IMG/VR virus record: IMGVR_UViG_3300045919_000302
Location: 85,292 to 149,291 of that record
DNA from: a virus
Length of the DNA: 64,000 nt
Reading direction: 5' to 3' (one strand)
The position numbers were made by a program, and so were the translations under genes. The notes below the pieces were generated by a model, which was not told the origin of the DNA, ran no database searches, and worked only from the letters and a program-made list of their open reading frames with translations. This document shows, piece after piece, positions 6,594 through 55,707 of the stretch. Every line of letters begins with the position of its first letter. Positions within the stretch are counted from its first letter, which is position 1.

Positions 6594-8996
6594 TCACCAC
6601 CTGAACCCAGGAGGGCTCACAGTCTTCCAGTTTTTGGCCCCGTATTTTTTCTTACGCGACCGGGCATACACCATCGCCATGCGACACCCGCTGTCCACGA
6701 GATCCACGACCAGCGGTGGCTTTTTGTCCGGCCTGACGCGCAGGATCCGGCCTACCGCCTGGTAGAGCGTCCCTTGGATCGGCGAGGCCATAACCATGGT
6801 GTCCAAGCGATCGTTGTTGAATCCGACCGCCAAGAGCTGGGTCGTGGCTACGAGCACCTGGGCCTTCTCGGCGATTGCCCGTTCCTTCTTACCGATTTTC
6901 CCGTGCATCATCCCCACCACAATCCCATGGGGCTTGAGCTGCTTTGTCAGCTCCTTGAACAAGATCTCGACATGCATCACCCGCTCAGACATCACGAGGA
7001 CATGCCGGCCACTCAACGCGGCCTTCACCGCGTTGTTGATGATCACCACATTCCGGACCGGGTTGTTCGTCACCGACTTCAAGAACGGGTTCTTCTGACG
7101 ATCCAAATCTCCTTCGCCGGCCCAAATATACTTCGTATCCACGAAGTAGACGGTGGGCTCTAGGACCTTGATGTCACCCATGGCTTTCACGATCGTGCCG
7201 ATCCCATACTTGAAGACGTTTTCAGCTCTGTCCTTGCGCTCCAGCGTGCCGGAGAGGCCGAGAAAGTATTTCGGCCGGAACTTGAAGAGCACCTTCTGGA
7301 ACTCAGTCGCGCCGACGTAGTGGACCTCGTCGCAAGCGATCAGGCCGAACTCATCGTAAATGCTCTCAGGATAGTCATCCTTCATCGAGAGTGAGTGGAG
7401 CATACCGATGCAAATGTCGTTACCCTTCACATCGACCGTCGATCCCTGAATAATTCCCAGCGACCAGTTGGGGAAGAAGCGTTTGATCTCCTTGATCCAT
7501 TGCTCCATCAGCACCGTCGTGTGGACGACGATCAGGGTCTTCATCCCCATCCTGCGGGCGGTCTCAAGCGCGAGGACGGTTTTACCGCTGTTGTGGGTGA
7601 CCGTAAAATCGCCCATTACATACAGATGATCCCCATCAAGAGAGAAGCCGTAAAAATCGTCCTCAGGAAGACGCTCAACATCAAAAGCCGTCCTGAGCAC
7701 GCTCTTCTTCTGGACTCTCTTTCTCGCCCTTTTCCTGGCGAGCCTCACTGGAACGTCAGCTAATTCACCGGAGATGCACACCCGATAGTAGGTGCCTCCG
7801 TTCCCATGTTGATCTCTCTTCTGGCAAGCCTTCATGTAAGCAGCAAAGCCAAGCGATCTGGCCAAGAAAACCACGCCGGATGCAAGCCTTCTGTCTTTCG
7901 AGATGTAATCGAATGTGCCGTTTGACAAGCTGCCACCAGTGTCGACGATGCCAGCAAGAAGCCCCAGCCTGTCCTCTCGTGAGGAAGTCAGGTAAACACT
8001 GGGAATATGCTTGAATCTGGTGACATTCAAGCGCCGCAGCTTCGACAAGAAAGCGTTGCTCCCTTTCTTACACCCGACAGCCTTCACTGTGACGGCTCGA
8101 TTGTTCGGCAACTCCATCTCAACGGAACTCATACCAATCGAATAGATGTACCGATTCCAATCGAAGATCAGCTCCCTATCCATGGAAGTCAACTCTGCCC
8201 GAGCAGCGGTGCCATCGCCAAGCCAGAGGCCCAGAATGTATGGCGGGATCGGCAGCTCTTTCTTCTGAAACTCAACCGGGACACGGTAAAGTTTGTGAAC
8301 GCTTTTGAACGACTTCGAGCGCGACAAGTAGTCAGCGACTGAGATGTTCACGATCGGGTTGTCGCCCAGGTAGTCCTTTCTTGGAGATTTCGATCCGCGA
8401 GGGTAACTCCTCTTCTTCGTCCTCATGAGAGACAGAATGTGACTCTCGTTAACGACGAACGGATCCCCCTTGGTCGGGGCAATCCTGACCATGCGCTGCC
8501 TTCCGCGTTTGAGTTCGAGAACCGTCCTCGGCTTACTATCTGGACCCATGAGCTGGTCACCGACACGCACATCTTCAACACGCCTCACGGAGCCGTCGAA
8601 CATCAGGATTTCGGTTCCTTTGGCGTGACAGCCCATAGTTGCCTCGATGATCGCACCTCCGAACTCGTTCTCCTTCATGGCTGCGATGGCTCTGGAGATC
8701 ACATCCTCTTGGCCTTCGCGTGGAGCGATGGGATCCGCCGGCCTCGGCTGATTGGACCCGACGCTGTACTGGAGGACTGCTTTGGCGTCCGGAAATCTCT
8801 TCCTAACTATCTTGTTGTAGTATCCTCGCGGGACGCAGAGGTGCTGCTCATCTTCAGCCCAGAGCCGAATCGGATCCGGCATCGGATTGAAAGAGGACGT
8901 CGAGACGGGCACGACCGTCAGCTTCTCTTTAATCATCTCACGGGCGGCGTGCGGCAAATCACTTTTTGAGACACTGACAAGACCACGGTATTTCAT
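6594..8996 (-). CDS. XPB/UvsW-like superfamily 2 helicase interrupted by an intein in its P-loop
   Basis: ATP-dependent DNA helicase of superfamily 2. The 800-residue precursor contains a 347-residue intein (residues 123-469); the spliced enzyme would be 453 residues. Helicase motifs: motif I is assembled across the splice junction (EATMG + SGKT), motif II is DEVH, motif III SGT, motif VI QAVGRILR, with the XPB-type ending MVYARSRKKKYG. The N-terminal ~90 residues look like the small DNA-binding domain of UvsW/XPB-type proteins. It is expected to act in branch migration or repair. GAGAGG stands before the ATG at 8996. Without splicing the Walker A motif is split, so the enzyme should be inactive. 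Confidence 0.93.
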   Translation of the reverse strand: MKYRGLVSVSKSDLPHAAREMIKEKLTVVPVSTSSFNPMPDPIRLWAEDEQHLCVPRGYYNKIVRKRFPDAKAVLQYSVGSNQPRPADPIAPREGQEDVISRAIAAMKENEFGGAIIEATMGCHAKGTEILMFDGSVRRVEDVRVGDQLMGPDSKPRTVLELKRGRQRMVRIAPTKGDPFVVNESHILSLMRTKKRSYPRGSKSPRKDYLGDNPIVNISVADYLSRSKSFKSVHKLYRVPVEFQKKELPIPPYILGLWLGDGTAARAELTSMDRELIFDWNRYIYSIGMSSVEMELPNNRAVTVKAVGCKKGSNAFLSKLRRLNVTRFKHIPSVYLTSSREDRLGLLAGIVDTGGSLSNGTFDYISKDRRLASGVVFLARSLGFAAYMKACQKRDQHGNGGTYYRVCISGELADVPVRLARKRARKRVQKKSVLRTAFDVERLPEDDFYGFSLDGDHLYVMGDFTVTHNSGKTVLALETARRMGMKTLIVVHTTVLMEQWIKEIKRFFPNWSLGIIQGSTVDVKGNDICIGMLHSLSMKDDYPESIYDEFGLIACDEVHYVGATEFQKVLFKFRPKYFLGLSGTLERKDRAENVFKYGIGTIVKAMGDIKVLEPTVYFVDTKYIWAGEGDLDRQKNPFLKSVTNNPVRNVVIINNAVKAALSGRHVLVMSERVMHVEILFKELTKQLKPHGIVVGMMHGKIGKKERAIAEKAQVLVATTQLLAVGFNNDRLDTMVMASPIQGTLYQAVGRILRVRPDKKPPLVVDLVDSGCRMAMVYARSRKKKYGAKNWKTVSPPGFRW
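7590..8630 (-). mobile_element. intein with LAGLIDADG endonuclease domain, inserted at the Walker A motif
   Basis: 347 codons. Splicing signals: first residue Cys (CHAKGTEILMFDG), block B with NESH, block F DDFYGFSLDGDHLYVMG, and the end VTHN followed by extein Ser470. The endonuclease part shows a first LAGLIDADG motif (ILGLWLGDG, acidic residue present) and a second (LLAGIVDTGGS) in which the expected catalytic Asp is Gly. Splicing residues look intact, so protein splicing is likely, while DNA cleavage may be lost. Insertion at GSGKT is a common intein site in ATPases. Confidence 0.93.
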
Positions 8997-10287: not shown

Positions 10288-10536
10288 TTATTTTTTCTCG
10301 TACAACGATCTCGCCTCGTCGGAAGAACCGGTAGGATCTTTAGTGACGCTGGTCACGATGCGTCGAAGAATCTCGGGAGTGACCGCCGCAAGAACCAGTC
10401 CTGCGTCCGGACGCTTGATGATCTGTTGGTCCTTCTCCAGCTTTACGAGATCCGGGTCTCGGGCGATCACATAGGTGGCAATGCCGTACCCGAGGATGAT
10501 GCCGAAAAATAAAACCACCACCATTGCGAGGATCAT
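10288..10536 (-). CDS. small membrane protein
   Basis: An 82-residue protein whose first ~28 residues form one hydrophobic segment (VVVLFFGIILGYGIATYVI), followed by a soluble charged tail; it should sit in the inner membrane as an N-terminal anchor. The ATG at 10536 overlaps the glycosyltransferase stop (ATGA) with GGGAG before it, so it is made together with the sugar-transfer proteins. Function unknown. Confidence 0.75.
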   Translation of the reverse strand: MILAMVVVLFFGIILGYGIATYVIARDPDLVKLEKDQQIIKRPDAGLVLAAVTPEILRRIVTSVTKDPTGSSDEARSLYEKK

Positions 10537-12260
10537 TTTGAATCTCCCTTGGAAGCGATAACGGTTGAAACCGACTCAACGACATCTCCGACCGAGATTC
10601 CGCTCAAGCAGTGATTCGTCCCGTACTCGCAGGACACGAACGTTACGGGGGGCCTTTGGTTGTGCAAACAGAATCGGCACTCTGTCTTGGGCACGAGCGC
10701 CAATGTTTTAGCCTCTCGGCTAATAACGCGGTAAGCCGGATCGGCCACTGTGAACAGACCGACGATCGGGACCTCTGTCGTCTGGGCGACGTGAAGGATG
10801 CCGCTGTCCATGCCGACAAAGACCACAGCTCTCTTGCACAGCTCCCGGATCTCGTGGATCGTCAACTCGTCCACGAGCGAGAGCCCTGGGAGAACGAAGT
10901 CCCCGCTCCTGCCGACGGTGACTACCTTCAGGCCCTGATTATTCAACTCATTGGCAACGGCCACCCAATTCCGCTCGGGCCACTTTCGATTGTCCCAGGT
11001 CCTTCCGGCCGCGTGAATCACGGCTACGCGGTCAATCCAAAGATCGACCGATCCAAGTTTATGCTTCAGAGTCTTAAGATCGGCATCGCCTGAGAACAGC
11101 TCCGGATCCAGACTCTCTCCAGCGACCGCCGCCTCCTGCGCGTAAGCCTCCCAGATTGGCACATTTGGCCGCTTCTCGTAAGCGAGGTCCAAATCGACAA
11201 ACCTGTCACGCTTGATACCAGCGGCAGACTTCACCGCAATCACCTGAGGATCATGCCGGAACACTTCGCCGCATTGAGTCTCTACGATCACCTTTCCCTT
11301 GGCCAATTGCTTCAGCTTCCGGATCACCCCGGTGGCCAAGATCACATCACCCAGGGCGCCTGTTCTCCGTACGACGATCGTCTCGGGAGGAGTCGGAGAC
11401 CTGAACGGGTGTTCGTGCGGGTTCTTTTGGAAGATCCACCGATCGGCGGTGTTGAAAATCTTTGGCATGTTCAATGAAGAAATTCCGTTAGAGAGCCCGA
11501 TAAAGTCATACCCCTTGAGGTCCTCTTGAAACTTCTTGAGACCCTCCATCTCCTTCATGTACCAGGCGCGATACTTGGATATCTTATCGGCTTCCGTTCT
11601 TCCGCGAGTAGCGCCCTCTGCGTGAATCGCTTTGATGGCAGGAGAATAAAAAACACGCCAACCGCTACTCCAGGCCCGAAGACAATACTCGGTGTCTTCG
11701 CATGCAACGAAGTAGCTCTCGTCCAGATTCCCGATCTGGTCGATCATCTCTTTACGGATGGCAAAGAGAGCGCCAGTTACGCCAAGAATGTACTCTGGTT
11801 TAAGAACCTTTGGATCGTAATCCGCGTGCCAGCCTCTATGAGAAAACATCCTTGCGGCTTCGTGAAAAAAAATCCCGCCGTGCTGAATCTTCCCATCCGG
11901 GTAGAAGAGGAGGCCACCGACGATCCCAATCTTTGGATCCTTTTGAAAGGCTTCAACGATCTGCTTGTCAACCCGCTCCGTGAATTCGATGTCGTTGTTG
12001 ACCAGGACAACAACGTCCCCGGTGGCTTTTGCGATCCCCTCATTCACCGCCTTGGCAAAGCCCCCGTTGGTCTCCCTCTGAATCAGAGTGACGCCCCATT
12101 CGCTGGCCAGGACCTTCATCTCCTCACGAATCTCAGTGCTGCTCCCGTCGTCCACGACGATGATCTCATGATTGCCACCATGGTGCCGAGAGAAGGATGC
12201 CAGGCACGCATTCGTGAGATCGGGCCTATTGATAGACGGGATGACGAAAGACAGTTTCAT
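10533..12260 (-). CDS. fused GT2-type and GT9-type glycosyltransferase
   Basis: A 575-residue fusion. The first ~260 residues are a GT-A family 2 transferase: FVIPSINRPDLT, VVDDGSS, NNDIEF at the metal/nucleotide site and CEDTEYCLRAWSSGW. From about residue 300 a GT9 (heptosyltransferase-like, GT-B) domain follows: RRTGALGDVILATGVI, VIHAAGRTWDNRKWPERNW and FVGMDSGILHVAQ. The fusion would transfer two sugars onto host envelope glycan, phage DNA or virion proteins; the acceptor cannot be seen. Start at ATG 12260 is supported by GGAGAG and an ATGA overlap with the upstream transferase. Confidence 0.9.
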   Translation of the reverse strand: MKLSFVIPSINRPDLTNACLASFSRHHGGNHEIIVVDDGSSTEIREEMKVLASEWGVTLIQRETNGGFAKAVNEGIAKATGDVVVLVNNDIEFTERVDKQIVEAFQKDPKIGIVGGLLFYPDGKIQHGGIFFHEAARMFSHRGWHADYDPKVLKPEYILGVTGALFAIRKEMIDQIGNLDESYFVACEDTEYCLRAWSSGWRVFYSPAIKAIHAEGATRGRTEADKISKYRAWYMKEMEGLKKFQEDLKGYDFIGLSNGISSLNMPKIFNTADRWIFQKNPHEHPFRSPTPPETIVVRRTGALGDVILATGVIRKLKQLAKGKVIVETQCGEVFRHDPQVIAVKSAAGIKRDRFVDLDLAYEKRPNVPIWEAYAQEAAVAGESLDPELFSGDADLKTLKHKLGSVDLWIDRVAVIHAAGRTWDNRKWPERNWVAVANELNNQGLKVVTVGRSGDFVLPGLSLVDELTIHEIRELCKRAVVFVGMDSGILHVAQTTEVPIVGLFTVADPAYRVISREAKTLALVPKTECRFCLHNQRPPVTFVSCEYGTNHCLSGISVGDVVESVSTVIASKGDSK

Positions 12261-13435
12261 TTTCTCTCCAGTGTTGTCTGATAAAAGCGCTCCCAAAGTG
12301 GTGCGTTTTCCTTGATGTCAAACTTCCTTACGAACGTCGTATTGGCCTTGACCCGCTCCGAGAGATCAGTCCGGCAGGCTTCACGCAAGGCTTCAAACCA
12401 GCTTCTCTCGTCATTGGGCGTAGCCATCCCACATCCGATCGAGTCTCCGTACGTCACTCCAGCTGAGGCGATCGGGAACGACCCGATGGCCATCGCCTCT
12501 GTCACCTTGAGGTTCGATTTTCCTCTGTTGAAGGGGATATCTACCACGGGCGCGAGGCTGATCTCAGGTTTGATCGCCTTGTAGGTCTGGTAGTAATTCA
12601 TGCACGGCACCGCGCTAAAAAGAAACAATCGATCCTGCGGGATGATCTCAAGCAGAGCGCGATGGGCGTACCCCATCAAGCCGAAGACCACATCCTCACT
12701 CCGGGAGATCCGGCGGACCGCACCCACGATCAGCTCCAGATCCTTCTCATGCGACGGTCCTCCGGACCAGAAGATCATCTTCCTTCCCTGGCGCTTCTCG
12801 TCAAGATGCGGCGGCGTGATCTTTTGATTGTTCGAAAAGATGATGGGCTCGACCGGCGGCATCGCGCTGATCAGATCCAGATCAAGGCAGTTCGGGATGA
12901 CCTCCACGTTCGGGAGATAATTCGAGTAGAGCTGCTTGAGGTAGGGCGTGGTCACGTCTACAGCGTCCGAGATCCGAAAGCTTTCTTCGATGATCTCCCG
13001 CCTGGACACATGGAACTGATGACCAGGGTTCCATTCTGGGATATTCAGATAATCGTCGTCGGCTGTTTGAACCACCACCTTGCCGGCGGACTTCGCGAGC
13101 CGCATCAGCCTCAGGTGGCTCATACCCACCGGCCGCTGGAACACGACGACGTCACTCTGGTTAATTTTGTCCAGGATGGATTTTTTCCACACCTGGATGT
13201 CGGCAGCCGACACCAAGAGCCTCTTGCAGGAGGCGCAATGGGACTCTTCCTGGTCCCACTGCACGTCGTAAGGCCCGCAGTAGAGCCCAGCGCTCATGCA
13301 CGGGTCGCAAAATACCTGCCGCTCGAACTCCTCGTCTTCGCACTGGTGTCCCCGCTCCGAAAGCTGGGACATGGGTGTAAGGACTCGAACCATCCAGCAG
13401 GCGTCACGACGTCTGGTCGCGTAAAAAATTTTCAC
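12257..13435 (-). CDS. GT4-like glycosyltransferase
   Basis: A 392-residue GT-B glycosyltransferase. The C-terminal half shows the family layout: VEVIPNCLDLD, IFWSGGPSHEKDLELI, then VVDIPFNRGKSNLKVTEAMA with the sugar-nucleotide contact region and a late Asn-Asp-Glu (ATPNDERSW). The N-terminal half contains a cysteine cluster (FCDPCMSAGLYCG ... CASC) that may bind zinc. I start it at GTG 13435 (GGAGG five bases upstream, GTGA overlap with the endonuclease stop) rather than TTG 13447. With the fused transferase downstream and the epimerase-like gene at 38436 it forms the phage's sugar-modification set. Confidence 0.85.
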   Translation of the reverse strand: MKIFYATRRRDACWMVRVLTPMSQLSERGHQCEDEEFERQVFCDPCMSAGLYCGPYDVQWDQEESHCASCKRLLVSAADIQVWKKSILDKINQSDVVVFQRPVGMSHLRLMRLAKSAGKVVVQTADDDYLNIPEWNPGHQFHVSRREIIEESFRISDAVDVTTPYLKQLYSNYLPNVEVIPNCLDLDLISAMPPVEPIIFSNNQKITPPHLDEKRQGRKMIFWSGGPSHEKDLELIVGAVRRISRSEDVVFGLMGYAHRALLEIIPQDRLFLFSAVPCMNYYQTYKAIKPEISLAPVVDIPFNRGKSNLKVTEAMAIGSFPIASAGVTYGDSIGCGMATPNDERSWFEALREACRTDLSERVKANTTFVRKFDIKENAPLWERFYQTTLERK

Positions 13436-19427: not shown

Positions 19428-19523
19428 CTCCTCTTTATCCAGAAATGGGCGATTGCAATACTTGATGACATTTTCGTGACCGAAAAGCTAATGATGGTCA
19501 GACGTGTAAAATCTGTTAACCAT
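19428..19523 (-). other. upstream part of the metallophosphoesterase frame with amber codon at 19488-19490
   Basis: From ATG 19523 the frame reads MVNRFYTSDHH, then TAG, then LFGHENVIKYCNRPF and on into the downstream frame without a further stop. SDHH...FGHENVIKYCNRPF is the conserved beginning of this enzyme family, so the six bases TAGCTT look like an insertion or a recent mutation inside the metal-binding motif. The ATG overlaps the helicase stop by eight bases and has GGCGAGG upstream. The rest of the gene shows no decay. Confidence 0.75.
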
Positions 19524-22500
19524 CGAGCACCTCGCCTTCTACATGTCCGACATGCTTTTTGAGTTGGTCGTTGGTTTTCTCGGTTCCCCAGTCCTTCTGG
19601 AGATCATCAAGGCCGATGCCCTTCTCCATCCACGCCTGCTCTTCGGCGGTGAGCTTCTTGCCTTCAAGCACCTTACGGGCCAACTCAGCCTTCTTTTTAA
19701 GGATCCCGATGACTTTGGAGTCCCAACGATTGCCAGCAGCCTTGATCCAGTAGACGTTCACCATGTTCTTCTGACCGATACGGTGTGCTCGTGCAGTGGC
19801 CTGGGCTTCATCGGCAGTATTCCACGGCAGGTCGTTGAAGATCACCTTGTCCGCCCGGGTCAGGGTTGCTCCGACCGCGAGGGATTGACGGGTGGTGCAG
19901 AACACCCGCTTGTCGGTTCCTTCGCGCTGGAACTCGGCCTTGGCCGCTTCGCGGACTTCGTCAGAAAGCTGGCCGTGATGGAGCAGGGAAAGGTCGCCCA
20001 TGGCTTCGTGGATCTGTTTGGCAACTTCGACCGAGTCCGAGAATACGAGCATGCTTGAGTCGGAGGATTCGAGCATCTCCTTGATGAACTCGATCGTCGC
20101 TCCGGCCTTGTCGATGGCGATGTCGCTCTTCATCCGGGCGATGTCTTCGAAGTCGATCTTGCCGTCTTCCGGGATGTCGCGGCAGCCTTCGACTTCGAGT
20201 TCGATGATCGAAGTGAGCTTCTCCGGGAGATCCTTCAGGACTTGGGCCTTGGAGGCGGTCTTGTAGAACTCCTGGATCTTGTGCCAGGTGCCGCCGATGG
20301 TCGCCATCTTGAGCGCGGTCTTGGACTCGAAGAAGCCGGGGCGGATCAGCTCCACCTGGGTGAAGAGTTCGTCCTTCTTGTTCTTGATCGCGGTGCCCGA
20401 GAGGAGGATCTTGTGGGCGAAGAGTGAGGAGACCGAGTGGACGGATTTGGTGATCTTGGCCTTCGGGTTCTTGATCGAGTGACTATTGTGAACCAGTGCT
20501 CCGTTTACAGAGAACGAAGGGTGGCCAGACACTTTGAGATCGTAGTAAAAACCCTGCTCGTTTCCTGGGTAACCTCCAGATTCGTGAACCGTAACACCGT
20601 CCACCCTAATTCCTTTAACTTCAGATCTTTTTTCTTGTCCTGCTCTCTCCGAGACAAGTGCGACAAGCCGTCCACTTCTACGCACAGCCGGTCCGAGACC
20701 AGCGCAAGATCCACTTTGTAGTTCGTTGGATATCCCGGAAATCTCCCACCCAAAGACACCGCGTGATTCCATTTCCACGAACGACCGAGGCGTGACAACA
20801 ACAATCTCTCCGGTTTCGTCGGCCCGTGGCCGTTCCCGCCCCGAACTGTTGGCTTCCATCCTATTCGTTTCAGAGTCGCCGAGACTTTGGATCGCGTGGC
20901 TGCTGAATGCATGGGATTCTTCAGTCTCATGCGAATAGCCGAATCCGGCCTCGCCTTCCCGGTTAGCGAGTTGCTTATTTTTAAAGCTGTCTTCTTCGTG
21001 TAAACCTTTGCTCGAATAGCAGGTTGCCTCATTCTCCATTTCGCAGAGCAGGAGGTTCCGCAAAAACGCTGCTTTCTGTACTGGTTTGGCAGGAAACTCT
21101 TCGCGCAATAACTGCACGGCTTCTTCTTGGCTGACAAGGGTGTCTCCTTCTTTTAGGTTTTCAGCAAACACCCACCCACGACTTGTAAGGAAAGGATGAT
21201 GCGATGAACATGTGACCGTTTGTCCACCGTATCTTAATTCAGTGCGGCTGTCCAATATCTGCGTCCTCTTGGTTCCGAGAACAGTAGATGTACCGGCAGC
21301 CGAATAGACCTCATCACCGACTTTTATTTGATCAATCCGCACCGGCCCACTTGGGGTATCAATAAGGGTCTCAGGTCCAAAGCACTCGTCGATCACCATC
21401 ACGTCGAAACCGGCGGCCTGGATCGCGGGGAGGAACTTCTCGAAGCTCGCGAAGTTGACGCTGGCGATTTGAACCTGGGAGAGATCCGGCATCCCGTTCT
21501 TCTTGAGCGACTTCGGGGTCAGCTCAATGCAGCGGGTGAAGTAGCCCGGGAAGAACTTCTTGGCTTCCTGGATCCAGGTCCGGCGAACCACCTTGGGGCA
21601 GACCACCAGGATCCGCTTGTTGTTCATCGCGGCGTAGCAGAGGGAGATGAGGGTCTTACCGAGGCCCATCTCAGCGCCGATCAGGGCGTTGCCGTTGGCG
21701 ACATTCAGGAAGCGGACGAAGTCGTTCTGGAAGGGGAACGGGACGATCTCGGGATTGATCATCGCCATCAGCTCCGGGATCGGGGCTTCGGCGGCGGCCT
21801 TCTTCATGTCGCGCTCGACCTGGGCTTCTTCGATACCCTGGAAGAAAAACTTCCAGCTCGGGAGCAACTCGCGGGCCTTGGTGATCGCTTCGAGGGCGAG
21901 ATCGAGGTTGTTGGTCAGACGGGCCCAGTCGGAGACCCGGCACTCGACGATCCCGGAGAGCTGGCTCGTTTTGTTTGAGAAGAGGCCATTCAGAACGGTG
22001 GAGAACGAGAACCGGAACTCGAACATGTCGCCCACCTTGCGGCAGATGAAGGCGTTGTTGATCCGCTTCTGGTCGAGGAGGGAGAGAGCCTTCTCCAGAG
22101 TGAGTTCGGCCTCCGGGGTCTTCTCAAACACCGGCACCGGGTTCACGGTGAAGCCCAGGGCCTCTAACTCGGCCTTGTAGCCGGCGAAGTCGAATGAGTC
22201 GATGTTCCTGCCCGGAACGTAGTTACGATCGAGGCCCCGGTCCCACCAAAGGCCGAACTTCTGGTTGACCCGGATGTACCGACGGCGCACCAGGGTGGGG
22301 ATCGAGCCTTCGTGAGACATGAGAAGGGCCGCACCCCAGCGGGCGTCAAGCACCTGGAGGACTGGGGTGATCGTCGGGAGCTTGATCTCAACCTTGACTT
22401 CAACCCGGAAGCTCTGGGGGTAGTTCTGCTCGACCGCTTCGCGGCCTTCTTCGCCGAACTGGCCGAGCTGGGTCTTGAGGTACTTCTTGAGGACGTGGGC

Positions 22501-22650
22501 CATCTCGGTGGCATCGCCCCGGACACCCGGCCAGCTGATCCAGTCAGGTTGATTGAAGCCGACCTCGTTCCGCTCCTTGACTTCGTCGATTCCAAACAGG
22601 AAGTCGCCCATGTGGCAGAGAAGCTGAGCTTGAATCAAGAATTTTTCCAT
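19516..22650 (-). CDS. SNF2-family helicase interrupted by an intein in its DEAH box
   Basis: A 1044-residue precursor; removal of the intein (residues 423-722) leaves 744 residues. SNF2/SF2 motifs: motif I GAEMGLGKT (325-333), motif Ia LVVCPKVV, motif II formed at the junction as VMVIDE + SHSIKN, motif III LLSGTAIKN, and motif VI TARAHRIGQ. Residues 1-290 are a long N-terminal domain of unknown role in which a HARP-like module may be present. Such enzymes (SMARCAL1/HARP-like) remodel forks or DNA-protein complexes. GAGG precedes the ATG at 22650 and a promoter-like motif lies at 22669-22704. Confidence 0.92.
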   Translation of the reverse strand: MEKFLIQAQLLCHMGDFLFGIDEVKERNEVGFNQPDWISWPGVRGDATEMAHVLKKYLKTQLGQFGEEGREAVEQNYPQSFRVEVKVEIKLPTITPVLQVLDARWGAALLMSHEGSIPTLVRRRYIRVNQKFGLWWDRGLDRNYVPGRNIDSFDFAGYKAELEALGFTVNPVPVFEKTPEAELTLEKALSLLDQKRINNAFICRKVGDMFEFRFSFSTVLNGLFSNKTSQLSGIVECRVSDWARLTNNLDLALEAITKARELLPSWKFFFQGIEEAQVERDMKKAAAEAPIPELMAMINPEIVPFPFQNDFVRFLNVANGNALIGAEMGLGKTLISLCYAAMNNKRILVVCPKVVRRTWIQEAKKFFPGYFTRCIELTPKSLKKNGMPDLSQVQIASVNFASFEKFLPAIQAAGFDVMVIDECFGPETLIDTPSGPVRIDQIKVGDEVYSAAGTSTVLGTKRTQILDSRTELRYGGQTVTCSSHHPFLTSRGWVFAENLKEGDTLVSQEEAVQLLREEFPAKPVQKAAFLRNLLLCEMENEATCYSSKGLHEEDSFKNKQLANREGEAGFGYSHETEESHAFSSHAIQSLGDSETNRMEANSSGRERPRADETGEIVVVTPRSFVEMESRGVFGWEISGISNELQSGSCAGLGPAVRRSGRLVALVSERAGQEKRSEVKGIRVDGVTVHESGGYPGNEQGFYYDLKVSGHPSFSVNGALVHNSHSIKNPKAKITKSVHSVSSLFAHKILLSGTAIKNKKDELFTQVELIRPGFFESKTALKMATIGGTWHKIQEFYKTASKAQVLKDLPEKLTSIIELEVEGCRDIPEDGKIDFEDIARMKSDIAIDKAGATIEFIKEMLESSDSSMLVFSDSVEVAKQIHEAMGDLSLLHHGQLSDEVREAAKAEFQREGTDKRVFCTTRQSLAVGATLTRADKVIFNDLPWNTADEAQATARAHRIGQKNMVNVYWIKAAGNRWDSKVIGILKKKAELARKVLEGKKLTAEEQAWMEKGIGLDDLQKDWGTEKTNDQLKKHVGHVEGEVLDG
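20485..21384 (-). mobile_element. intein inserted at the DEAH box of the SNF2 helicase, hosting an out-of-frame endonuclease gene
   Basis: 300 codons. Splicing features: Cys423 start (CFGPETLIDTPSGPVRI), VGDEVYS, block B TVTCSSHHPFLT, a block F-like FYYDLKVSGHPSFSVNG, and ALVHN with extein Ser723. These Hint parts add up to about 130 residues; the remaining ~170 residues (roughly codons 515-685) have a composition with no known fold and overlap the endonuclease gene at 20505-21137, which is read in another minus-strand frame. The intein frame has no stop, so full-length splicing-competent protein can be made. Confidence 0.93.
20505..21137 (-). CDS. Vsr/DUF559-like homing endonuclease nested out of frame inside the intein gene
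   Basis: A 210-residue protein in a different frame from the surrounding intein. N-terminal zinc knuckle (C8, C11, C26, C30: PCSYC ... FCGTSC), a NUMOD3-type DNA-binding repeat (residues 51-94: KISNSLTGK, RMRLKNPM, KVSATLKRIGW), then a Vsr/DUF559-like nuclease: PTKPERLLL (E110), NYKVDLAL (D143), CVEVDGLSH (E154, D156, H160) and GWTVLRFTN. It starts at TTG 21137 with AAGGAG six bases upstream, a ribosome site that lies in the codons for the conserved K-E-G-D motif of the intein. It would be the mobility enzyme of this intein. Confidence 0.88.
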   Translation of the reverse strand: MSAKKKPCSYCAKSFLPNQYRKQRFCGTSCSAKWRMRQPAIRAKVYTKKTALKISNSLTGKARPDSAIRMRLKNPMHSAATRSKVSATLKRIGWKPTVRGGNGHGPTKPERLLLSRLGRSWKWNHAVSLGGRFPGYPTNYKVDLALVSDRLCVEVDGLSHLSRREQDKKKDLKLKELGWTVLRFTNLEVTQETSRVFTTISKCLATLRSL

Positions 22651-52452: not shown

Positions 52453-55400
52453 TCAGGGTTGATAATAACGCATGCATGCCTTCGCGCCGGTCGGCGCAGA
52501 GTAAAGTGCGACTCCCAATTTAACATCATTCGCCGGGTCGCGCTTCTTCAGTTGTCCGCCCGTATCGCCAGTCATGGCGTCGCCTTTCACGACGCTTGTC
52601 GTAGTGAAAGAACACGCGCCACCCGACAAGCTGACCAAGGCATTTCCACCCACCACATCCATCAGAATACCTAGCGCGGTATTGGAAGAAAAAGCCGGAA
52701 TGGCGTTAGAGCCAGTTGAAACCGTAGTAACGCTCGACCCGCCAGCTGGCACGTTGTTGAATACCAACGTTGCGGAAGGGTTTGCGCCAACAGTGTTGTG
52801 GGACAGATTGACGACGTTAGCGGAAGATGACGCAGTCCACCCGGTAAACGCGGACGACATAGCACCAGCTAGAGCCGCAGCATCAAGCGATGTACTTGCT
52901 CCGGGCGTCCAGCTCGGTCCAACGGTAACTGTAAAAGGACTTCCAGCATCAATAGGTGAGGTTAACGTGTACGCCGTCGCCGGAGTCGAAATGACAACCG
53001 TGGCGGAGGTGAGTGATATCCCGGTTTCGTAACTCGCTGCGATCGGATGTAGGTTCAGACCGGCTGGGCTTTGTGACGATGTGTAAACCGTCGCACCATT
53101 GACGGAATAGACGACATTAGTGCCATCGCTAGCCACTGATACAACATCACCCGGTGCGACAGGCACGCCCGGTGAGGTGATAAACGTGCCTTGTTCGTAG
53201 ATTCGGTAAGACGTGGGAGCGCCGTCAGTAGAAATCGCAAAGTGGATGGCGGTATAGGACGCTGGCGTCAGGACTTCGCTAAGCCCCAGCATCGTTGAAA
53301 AACCTGTTGGGACGACTCCGCTTACAGAAATCACGCCCGTTGTGGACGCATTTGAATACGCGAGCGAGTCCCATCCTCCTGGTGAGGTTTTGGTCAACTC
53401 AGAGCCGGAAGCTGTAAAGTTTGTTAAATTATCCCATGACACAGGTCCGGACGACGACCCCCCTAGCGTACTGACCTGATTTACCGTTATTGAAAAACTG
53501 GCCGCAGTGCCGGTTACGGCTGGCGTGGGCGCGTATACATCCGCGAACCCGCCTTGTTCCATCATCAGCTTTCCGATATCGGCTGTGGTGACACCAGTGG
53601 CTGCTGGCACCGCATAGGTTGCAGATGCGGTCACCGATTGTTTGTTGGCAGCGTCATTGGGATTTACTGGGTCGGCAACCCCGGTGATAGGTATAGGGCT
53701 TCCGTCTCCGTTACCACCCAAGTCCAGACGATTAGTGTGCAAAGTCATTGAACTAAGCGTGACAAGGCTGTTGTTAGCTGCCCTGATAACTACAGAACTC
53801 CCAGTTCCCTTTGATGTCAGATTTAAGCTACTTGCGTGAATAATCTCTGAAGCCCAAATGTCTAAATAGGGTTTTCCACTATTTCCCAGTGACCACGTAT
53901 TGGCTGAGTCCGGAAAAACGTCTTGTGTTTGAAGCGATGAGCCTAAAATGATTGGATCAGAGAAAGTCGTCGCACCGGCACAAGTCCCCCCAAAGCAGCT
54001 AGGCCCTGTAGGTCCAGTGGCACCGCTTTCACCGGTTTGGCCCGTCGCGCCGCTCGCGCCGGTCTGGCCCGTTTGACCGCTTGCACCGGCCCCAGTAGGG
54101 CCAGTCTCTCCGGTGGCCCCGGTTTGTCCGGTCTGACCAGAAGCGCCGGTCTGGCCGGTTGCACCAGCTCCGGTGGGCCCGATGTTTCCGGGGGCACCCT
54201 GATCTCCGGCCGAAGCAATCGCAGCGCCAGATGTGACTGTGGTGCCTGGCGCGACGTTACTCGGAGTCCCGAGATTCTTCACGCTGATGTGTGTGCCGTC
54301 CGTAATGGAATTCAGAAGGTAGTATCCACCTCCTTGAATGAAAATGGTTTGCCCAGCGCTCATCCAGGCGGATCCGCCATTCAAGCCGGTCAGAACGATC
54401 CCGATGTTGGAGTTCACCGCAGGCTGGGTGAAGCTAATGCCAAGGGCCGACCACGCCGATTGCCCGGCGGCACCCGCAGCACCAGGGAGACCGTCATTTC
54501 CAGATGCCCCGGTGGCACCGGTTTGGCCGGTGGATCCAGCGCCGCTTGCGCCAGTAGCTCCGGTCGCTCCTGTAGTCCCGCTCGCGCCAGTCTGCCCTGT
54601 AGATCCGGCACCAGAGGCCCCAGTCGCCCCGGAAGCGCCAGAAGCTCCGGTTTGTCCGGTTTGTCCTGTCGCGCCTGCGCCTGTTGCACCCGTTGCGCCA
54701 GTTTCTCCGGATGCTCCGGTAGCTCCAGACCCAGTTGGCCCAGTCTGACCAGAGGCCCCAGTTTGTCCGGAAGCTCCAGTTTGACCAGAAGCCCCAGAAG
54801 CGCCGATTGCTCCGTCAGCTCCAGAGGCACCAGTTTGGCCAGAAGCTCCGGTTTGACCAGAGGCTCCAGTTTGGCCAGAAGCTCCGGTAGGCCCAGTGAT
54901 CGCGGCTCTCGTGTCCACGTAGTTTTTAGTTGCGGCATCTTGCGGCCCTGTCGGATCAGTAATTCCGTGAATTGTTCCTGATCCTCCAAAATCAATGGAT
55001 CCCCCGTAAGGTTGATTCGCCCCCGTGCTGTTGAGCTTTGAGGAAAGAGCAGAGTCTACATAGGTCTTACGAACAGCGTCTCCAGTGCCAATTGGAGCTG
55101 GAAGATTTCTGATTTTAAATCCAGAATTCATATCGATGTCGCCAGACATCGTTCCGCCACTCAGAGGTAGGTAATCTTGCGCGAGACCCAGGGAAGATCC
55201 ATTGAAAGATAACCCGGTGCCAGCGGCCACAACCGTTCCGTCAGCGCCAGAAGCGCCCGTAGCGCCGGTAGATCCAGAGCCGCCAGTAGCGCCCGTCTGT
55301 CCAGTATTGCCGGTGGACCCAGCCCCAGTAGGACCGGTAGCGCCGGAATTACCCGTGCCGCCCGTAACCCCAGTATTCCCGGTAGACCCAGTGCTGCCGG

Positions 55401-55707
55401 GGCTTCCATTCAGTCCATTCGAGCCTCCGGCCCCAGTAGAGCCAGTGGCTCCAGAGGCTCCGGTAGAGCCAGTCGCACCAGTGCCCCCTCCACCGCCAGC
55501 TCCGAGATCCGCAGGTCCGCTGACACCCTGAACTCGTGGGCGCTGGGTCGTCGTATTGTACCAGATCCGTCCAGTGGCCGGACTCACGGGATCTGAAGCG
55601 AGATTCTCTAGTTGAGCTTTTTCAAGTTCACCGTAAATCTTCACCGCCCAGGCGTGAGTTGGTTGCAGGAAGGCAAGAAGGGCGATGTAAAATGCAGCGC
55701 GTTTCAT
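52453..55707 (-). CDS. exported collagen-like fibre protein
   Basis: A 1084-residue protein. Residues 1-21 ([18 protein letters not shown]) look like a signal peptide. Residues ~70-160 and ~260-430 are collagen-like Gly-x-y repeats of the GATG/GQTGAS kind, and another block sits near 500-560; they are separated by globular parts. [20 protein letters not shown] is the fibre motif of many phage tail fibres, followed by [16 protein letters not shown]. The C-terminal ~400 residues are beta-rich. Collagen triple helices give long stiff fibres; the signal peptide is unexplained. Confidence 0.75.

Follow-up and report, generated by a model that had tools for sequence, protein, structure and literature searches.

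The 64,000-nucleotide stretch of viral DNA analyzed here (the window; IMG/VR record IMGVR_UViG_3300045919_000302, positions 85,292 to 149,291) contains a helicase gene interrupted by an intein, and part of that intein is also open in a second frame of the same strand, which resembles a nuclease gene. The question raised by this locus is whether an intein may carry its homing endonuclease overprinted in another frame, as a protein of its own, instead of fused into the intein polypeptide. All window features described below lie on the minus strand. Elsewhere in the window we observed an 800-aa ORF (6594-8996) that resembles terminase large subunit families over residues 132-470 and a phage DNA helicase family over residues 470-781, an ORF (10533-12296) with an N-terminal GtrB-like O-antigen conversion (glycosyltransferase) match, and a tail-fibre-like protein of 1084 aa (52453-55707) matching minor tail families of the collagen-like type.

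An Uninterrupted Intein in the Helicase Gene

The host ORF (19516-22650) has no internal stop and encodes, in the order extein-intein-extein, 1044 residues of an SF2/SNF2-type phage helicase (SNF2-rel_dom, 1.3e-13; Helicase_C, 3.5e-13; phrog_62). The N-extein (21385-22650) ends within the Walker-B motif as ...VMVIDE, the C-extein (19516-20484) begins with Ser+1 as SHSIKN..., and the 300-aa intein between them (20485-21384) runs from Cys1 to His299-Asn300 (VIDE^CFGP...LVHN^SHSIK). It matches the Pfam families PT-HINT, Hint_2 and Intein_splicing, and a profile comparison paired it with inteins and Hint domains of solved structure, gp41-1 and NrdJ-1 among them. The residues by which inteins are recognized (Cys or Ser at position 1, T/S-x-x-H in block B, block F, and (His)-Asn followed by Cys, Ser or Thr) are all found in the window, as Cys1, a Cys-Ser-Ser-His-His block B (CSSHHP), block F, and a terminal His-Asn followed by Ser+1; C1, H63 and V298-H299-N300 are invariant across 38 inteins. 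The initial annotation had proposed an intein at this place, open from end to end and complete in its splicing residues, and both its coordinates and its residues were confirmed.

The AlphaFold model of the intein is confident for residues 1-90 and 259-300 (mostly pLDDT 90-98), which correspond to the N-terminal Hint part (21115-21384; mean pLDDT 90-98 per ten-residue block) and to the C-terminal Hint part with blocks F and G (20485-20610), and this two-part, beta-rich predicted structure has the form expected of a Hint fold. The intervening residues 91-258 (20611-21114), here called the filler, are open and poorly conserved, with predicted disorder over residues ~120-250 (pLDDT roughly 41-55). 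A group I intron was also considered and rejected, as no Rfam match to a structured catalytic RNA (group I or group II intron) was found in the window.

A Vsr-like Nuclease Gene in the +1 Frame

The nested gene (20505-21137) is displaced by +1 relative to the intein frame and encodes 210 residues, from a TTG start to a TAA stop that is written in the GTA AAC codons of intein block G. Its product matches DUF559 (Pfam, 4.2e-14) and PDB entry 3hrl (6.9e-9), which agrees with the Vsr/DUF559-like nuclease first proposed for this frame, and DUF559 was recognized in 60 of 60 members of the nuclease family. The catalytic core spans nuclease residues 137-204 (20526-20729); among the 60 members D143, D156, H160 and D167 never vary and E154 hardly does, fitting an active site of the EDxHD type. 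As homology reaches residue 204 (20526), it overlaps blocks F and G of the intein. Close to the N-terminus lies a zinc-knuckle-like segment (21048-21116), whose four cysteines (C8, C11, C26 and C30) are invariant in a 6-sequence nuclease alignment, in line with the knuckle that had been claimed; the NUMOD3 repeats claimed alongside it are weakly supported, being recognized by Pfam in only one of the 60 members.

The nuclease was modeled with high confidence (AlphaFold, mean pLDDT 93), and the closest solved folds were 3hrl, the homing endonuclease I-Bth0305I (3R3P) and Vsr (1cw0), with best Foldseek E-values of only 0.008-0.04. The structural match to 3R3P has a Foldseek probability of 1.00 and a TMt of 0.77, and the sequence match to it is weak (E 0.035). 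The family thus shares with the EDxHD/Vsr-like enzyme I-Bth0305I the fold of the catalytic domain and the E, D, H and D residues; it differs in that I-Bth0305I is labelled in the PDB as a mobile-intron protein, whereas the window family is overprinted in inteins and carries an N-terminal Cys knuckle.

A Shine-Dalgarno sequence, AAGGAG (21144-21149), stands six bases before the TTG at 21137 and is written in the E-G-D codons of ...LKEGDTL..., where the N-terminal Hint part ends; its position before the start and within Hint codons agrees with the initial annotation. Among 102 nested loci, 34 have a Shine-Dalgarno match of at least 5 bases before an in-frame start, compared with 4 and 9 in two control frames. 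When any match of at least 4 bases is counted, it precedes a candidate nuclease start in only about two thirds of the 102 loci, and in 55 of the 66 starts supported in this way the codon is ATG. From the supported start back to the nearest in-frame stop, the median distance is 10.5 codons. The window's own start is a TTG, which we counted against internal initiation; nevertheless, independent translation of the nuclease by internal initiation is the best reading of these sequences.

Both Frames Are Maintained

Not one stop interrupts the intein frame over 18,355 codons in 102 distinct nested loci, while synonymous shuffling of the nuclease codons (101 loci) predicts 1,148 intein-frame stops and the third frame of the same 102 loci holds 1,388. 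This openness is not a product of sampling, since the loci were chosen by nuclease similarity only. In the window itself about nine intein-frame stops are expected from the shuffled nuclease and none is observed, with 0 of 300 shuffles being stop-free; the open intein frame is far beyond chance.

Pairwise comparisons of substitutions point in the same direction. Outside the overlap, changes favour codon position 3; within it, the most variable position in seven pairs is intein position 1, i.e., the wobble position of the nuclease; and in the last 7-15 intein codons, past the nuclease stop, changes, where there are any, fall mainly at position 3 again. The frame-specific codon constraint suggested by the initial annotation was computed and gave, pooled over four pairs only, an omega of ~0.16 for the nuclease and, given a nuclease-changing substitution, of 0.99 (about neutral) for the intein filler; the "stop" substitutions counted in these pairwise tests are multiply changed codons and not real stops. 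Taken with the position-1 rates, these values indicate that the nuclease is a selected product and that the filler is nearly free apart from having to stay open. Where the nuclease overlaps blocks F and G, substitutions at position 1 drop from 0.25 to 0.07 per codon, so this final stretch, comprising the C-terminal Hint part and the C-terminus of the nuclease, is constrained in both frames. The earlier proposal that the filler only needs to remain open is thereby supported, the filler being neutral given the nuclease and missing from nuclease-free mini-inteins (see below); the opposite pattern, a relative with conserved filler and a broken nuclease frame, was looked for and no such relative was found.

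The Same Nesting in Other Phages and Bacteria

Used alone as the query, the window nuclease gave no matches among viral contigs, and the family was recovered by tblastn on phages followed by nuclease-alignment searches of IMG/VR and of bacterial genomes. The tblastn search against annotated phages hit 40 records, in all of which the match lies under an annotated gene. In the eight phage loci that were fetched (Vibrio CP-T1, 1.194.O, 1.088.O, K391, 159E43-1b and 104E43.1; Pseudomonas MR14; Corynebacterium phi673), the annotated host gene is a helicase with an unbroken CDS, the nuclease lies in the +1 frame within an intein at DE^C...HN^CH, and the nested gene is annotated in none of the eight.

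After removal of duplicates, the census comprised 147 distinct loci (115 in a first pass), from phages, viral contigs and bacterial MAGs, in which the nuclease lies inside an uninterrupted intein, in all cases at +1 and in none of the 147 in frame. Beyond these there were four split forms, four loci with one Hint half seen and four with a full nuclease and no detected Hint; 46 weak DUF559 matches were set aside, housekeeping DUF559 proteins having been considered and rejected as family members. Homologues of the nuclease frame, whose absence everywhere had been named as grounds for abandoning the initial annotation, are therefore abundant, and, with 147 distinct sequences showing double coding, the arrangement represents a widespread and so far unannotated mobile-intein design. 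As relatives were sampled mainly via the nuclease, nuclease-free inteins are under-sampled in this set.

At least 105 of the 116 insertion sites of the first pass lie directly after DE or EE, and most of the remaining ones a few residues further along the same DExH-like motif. The host proteins include SF2/SNF2 helicases, a terminase large subunit and clamp-loader AAA proteins and, taken together with the sites, they indicate that insertion targets the Walker-B regions of different P-loop NTPases. In one locus (L037, 3836-4540) the nested nuclease ORF extends about 37 bases beyond the intein end into C-extein codons. Two full nuclease relatives with no detected Hint (L224, 2935-3618; L257, 2908-3471) have stops in the other frames and are probably free-standing or intronic nucleases.

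Empty Alleles, Mini-Inteins and Split Forms

Closely related helicases have no intein at precisely this position: those of Vibrio phages 1.251.O (L174; C-extein 96% identical) and 141O35-1 (L178) both read uninterrupted QDECHHVLRDNKWG, and a 67% relative of the window helicase (L180) reads uninterrupted LIIDESHTIKSEK. Such alleles are consistent with mobility or with loss of the element, and are not proof that the nuclease is the driver. A free-standing close relative of the nuclease (L111, 3962-4576) lies directly upstream of an intein-free helicase (...IIVDESHH...), placed as if guarding its own target.

In four related Vibrio phages the same site is occupied by a mini-intein of 143-150 aa with neither nuclease nor filler. 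Annotated endonuclease or HNH endonuclease genes adjoin, or lie near, mini-intein helicases (L179, 3787-5085; L175, 4574-4843), and these might act on the same target. Vibrio phage PS65A.1 (L176, 659-3790) has, beside the Walker-B mini-intein, a second helicase intein at Walker A (GGGK^C...HN^T); the LGVWLGDG within this long intein suggests an in-frame LAGLIDADG enzyme of the canonical kind; a short version of this second intein was observed in L177 (1334-3835).

In the four split (fractured) forms, L113, L186, L187 and L188, both intein and host gene are divided. In L113 (3301-4500) and L186 (2400-4300) the N-half stops just after block B and is followed by the nuclease and then by the C-half, with the nuclease still at +1 and overlapping the C-half. 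A Hint tree placed the mini-inteins within the nested group (98/89 for an enclosing fork), and likewise the split forms L113, L186 and L188 (97/87 and 94/84). With no root, few columns and a sample drawn mostly via the nuclease, this tree leaves a nested ancestor as the simplest reading and not proof. Distances between N-Hint parts correlate with those between nucleases (Mantel r 0.50, reached in 0 of 500 permutations). Judged from the split loci and the tree, some split inteins appear to have arisen from overprinted ones.

Proposed Mechanism and Alternative Explanations

Overall, we assign a probability of roughly 0.87 to the reading that the locus is a mobile intein that encodes its homing endonuclease by overprinting, in the +1 frame and not fused in frame, with translation by internal initiation. 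A single mRNA would be translated along two routes. Ribosomes that follow the helicase frame would produce an extein-intein-extein precursor, in which the Hint parts (residues about 1-90 and 259-300) would fold around the disordered filler and splice, restoring the Walker-B DE-SH junction; other ribosomes would start at the Shine-Dalgarno sequence that ends the N-terminal Hint part and make the 210-aa Vsr-like nuclease as a protein of its own. This nuclease, by analogy with known homing enzymes, would cut intein-free Walker-B alleles, and repair would copy intein and nuclease together into the cut allele, so that the nuclease probably spreads the intein. What the sequences show directly is two open frames, purifying selection on the nuclease, splicing motifs, conserved nesting, and alleles at this site that lack the intein or the nuclease; splicing, translation of the nuclease, cleavage and homing are inferred. 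The core of the initial annotation is supported: an intact intein whose filler need only stay open, together with an independently started Vsr/DUF559-like homing nuclease in another frame.

The nuclease could instead be reached by programmed +1 ribosomal frameshifting from the intein frame, giving an N-Hint-nuclease fusion and requiring no internal initiation. The offset is indeed always +1, and in the window the Shine-Dalgarno sequence precedes a CTT codon in GGA GAC ACC CTT GTC, a context loosely resembling the +1 site of prfB. However, an ATG follows the Shine-Dalgarno sequence in most relatives with a supported start, the upstream in-frame stop leaves a narrow window for a shift, and the sequence at the putative shift point varies between loci, which together make frameshifting unlikely. 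As to an assembly or sequencing artefact, by which two compensating frameshifts would have displaced an ordinary in-frame intein endonuclease, no support was found; complete phage genomes (e.g., CP-T1, MR14 and phi673) show an identical offset, as do all 147 loci, and two indels cannot explain the nesting, as the DUF559 homology shares its DNA with intein blocks F and G, which are read in a different frame. We have rejected this explanation, its probability being negligible.

Homing enzymes commonly decay after fixation, as described by the homing-cycle model, and the nested frame might accordingly be a decaying, unexpressed remnant of a free-standing nuclease inserted into a mini-intein, open by chance or for the sake of splicing; the free-standing relative upstream of an intein-free helicase would suit such an origin. 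Against this stand the low omega of the nuclease, its invariant or nearly invariant catalytic residues and the strong matches of the census, among which no decayed nuclease copy was found, and we regard a remnant as very improbable. An equally slim chance is given to the nested protein serving the phage otherwise, in DNA repair, recombination or defence: cutting by the nuclease is here a prediction, and neither Vsr nor every DUF559 protein is a homing enzyme, but the nuclease nearly always accompanies an intein at Walker-B sites, inside it or next to it. It also tracks the N-Hint part, is missing from intein-free and mini-intein alleles, and matches a homing endonuclease in its catalytic fold. 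The overprinted, internally initiated homing endonuclease is accordingly the explanation carried forward here.

Comparison with Known Systems and Implications

Canonical LAGLIDADG and HNH inteins likewise combine a Hint domain with a homing endonuclease at a conserved NTP-binding motif; they differ from the present family in that here the nuclease is outside the intein polypeptide. Fractured genes, reportedly described by Dassa et al. in 2009, are said to be split inteins with a free-standing Vsr-like endonuclease. These have in common with the window family the kind of nuclease, its separate encoding between Hint halves, and its occurrence in helicases and other phage genes; but in fractured genes intein and host gene are broken in two, whereas here a single unbroken frame is overprinted by the nuclease, and the two ORFs around a nuclease that define a fractured gene are replaced in the window by one. 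Judged by sequence and predicted structure, the element is an intein with a Vsr-like homing-type nuclease, yet neither canonical nor fractured. Group I introns with internal endonuclease ORFs also release the nuclease as its own protein from within a splicing element; here, unlike in those introns, splicing is at the protein level, and the element must therefore stay open in the host frame.

The closest published case found is the ShiLan domain/Pacc40 gp60 insertion, an out-of-frame HNH in phage methylases without splicing and with no detectable ribosome-binding site (PMC11855218). Both systems hide a homing-type nuclease out of frame, keep the host frame open and are patchily distributed. In contrast to ShiLan, with its HNH nuclease and no splicing domain, the window family is Vsr-like, with a complete Hint that surrounds and overlaps the nuclease, and part of the family, the window included, has internal starts preceded by a Shine-Dalgarno sequence. 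A 2025 preprint on "non-canonical architecture" in actinobacteriophage inteins (doi 10.1101/2025.01.02.630785) may bear on priority.

The initial annotation had left two options, an overprinted intermediate or a separate strategy. The latter fits better, as the arrangement is stable, always +1 and present in 147 distinct loci, even though some split inteins appear to derive from the nested form. Were the nuclease translated on its own, the filler would be free, so that a stop in the filler and a start for the C-half would yield a fractured gene, and, on the same view, loss of the nuclease would collapse the overprinted element to a mini-intein. That overprinted inteins are an old, widespread class and the evolutionary source of phage split inteins is a proposal we make tentatively and hold to be somewhat less likely than not; if true, the fast split inteins gp41-1 and NrdJ-1 could have overprinted ancestors.

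Overprinting would uncouple the dose of nuclease from splicing and let one stretch of DNA serve two proteins. The family also supplies many natural examples of long overlaps between genes on one strand, in which one frame is constrained and the other nearly free, a set useful for studying gene overlap, and it may offer a testable route from cis-splicing to split inteins, themselves widely used tools.
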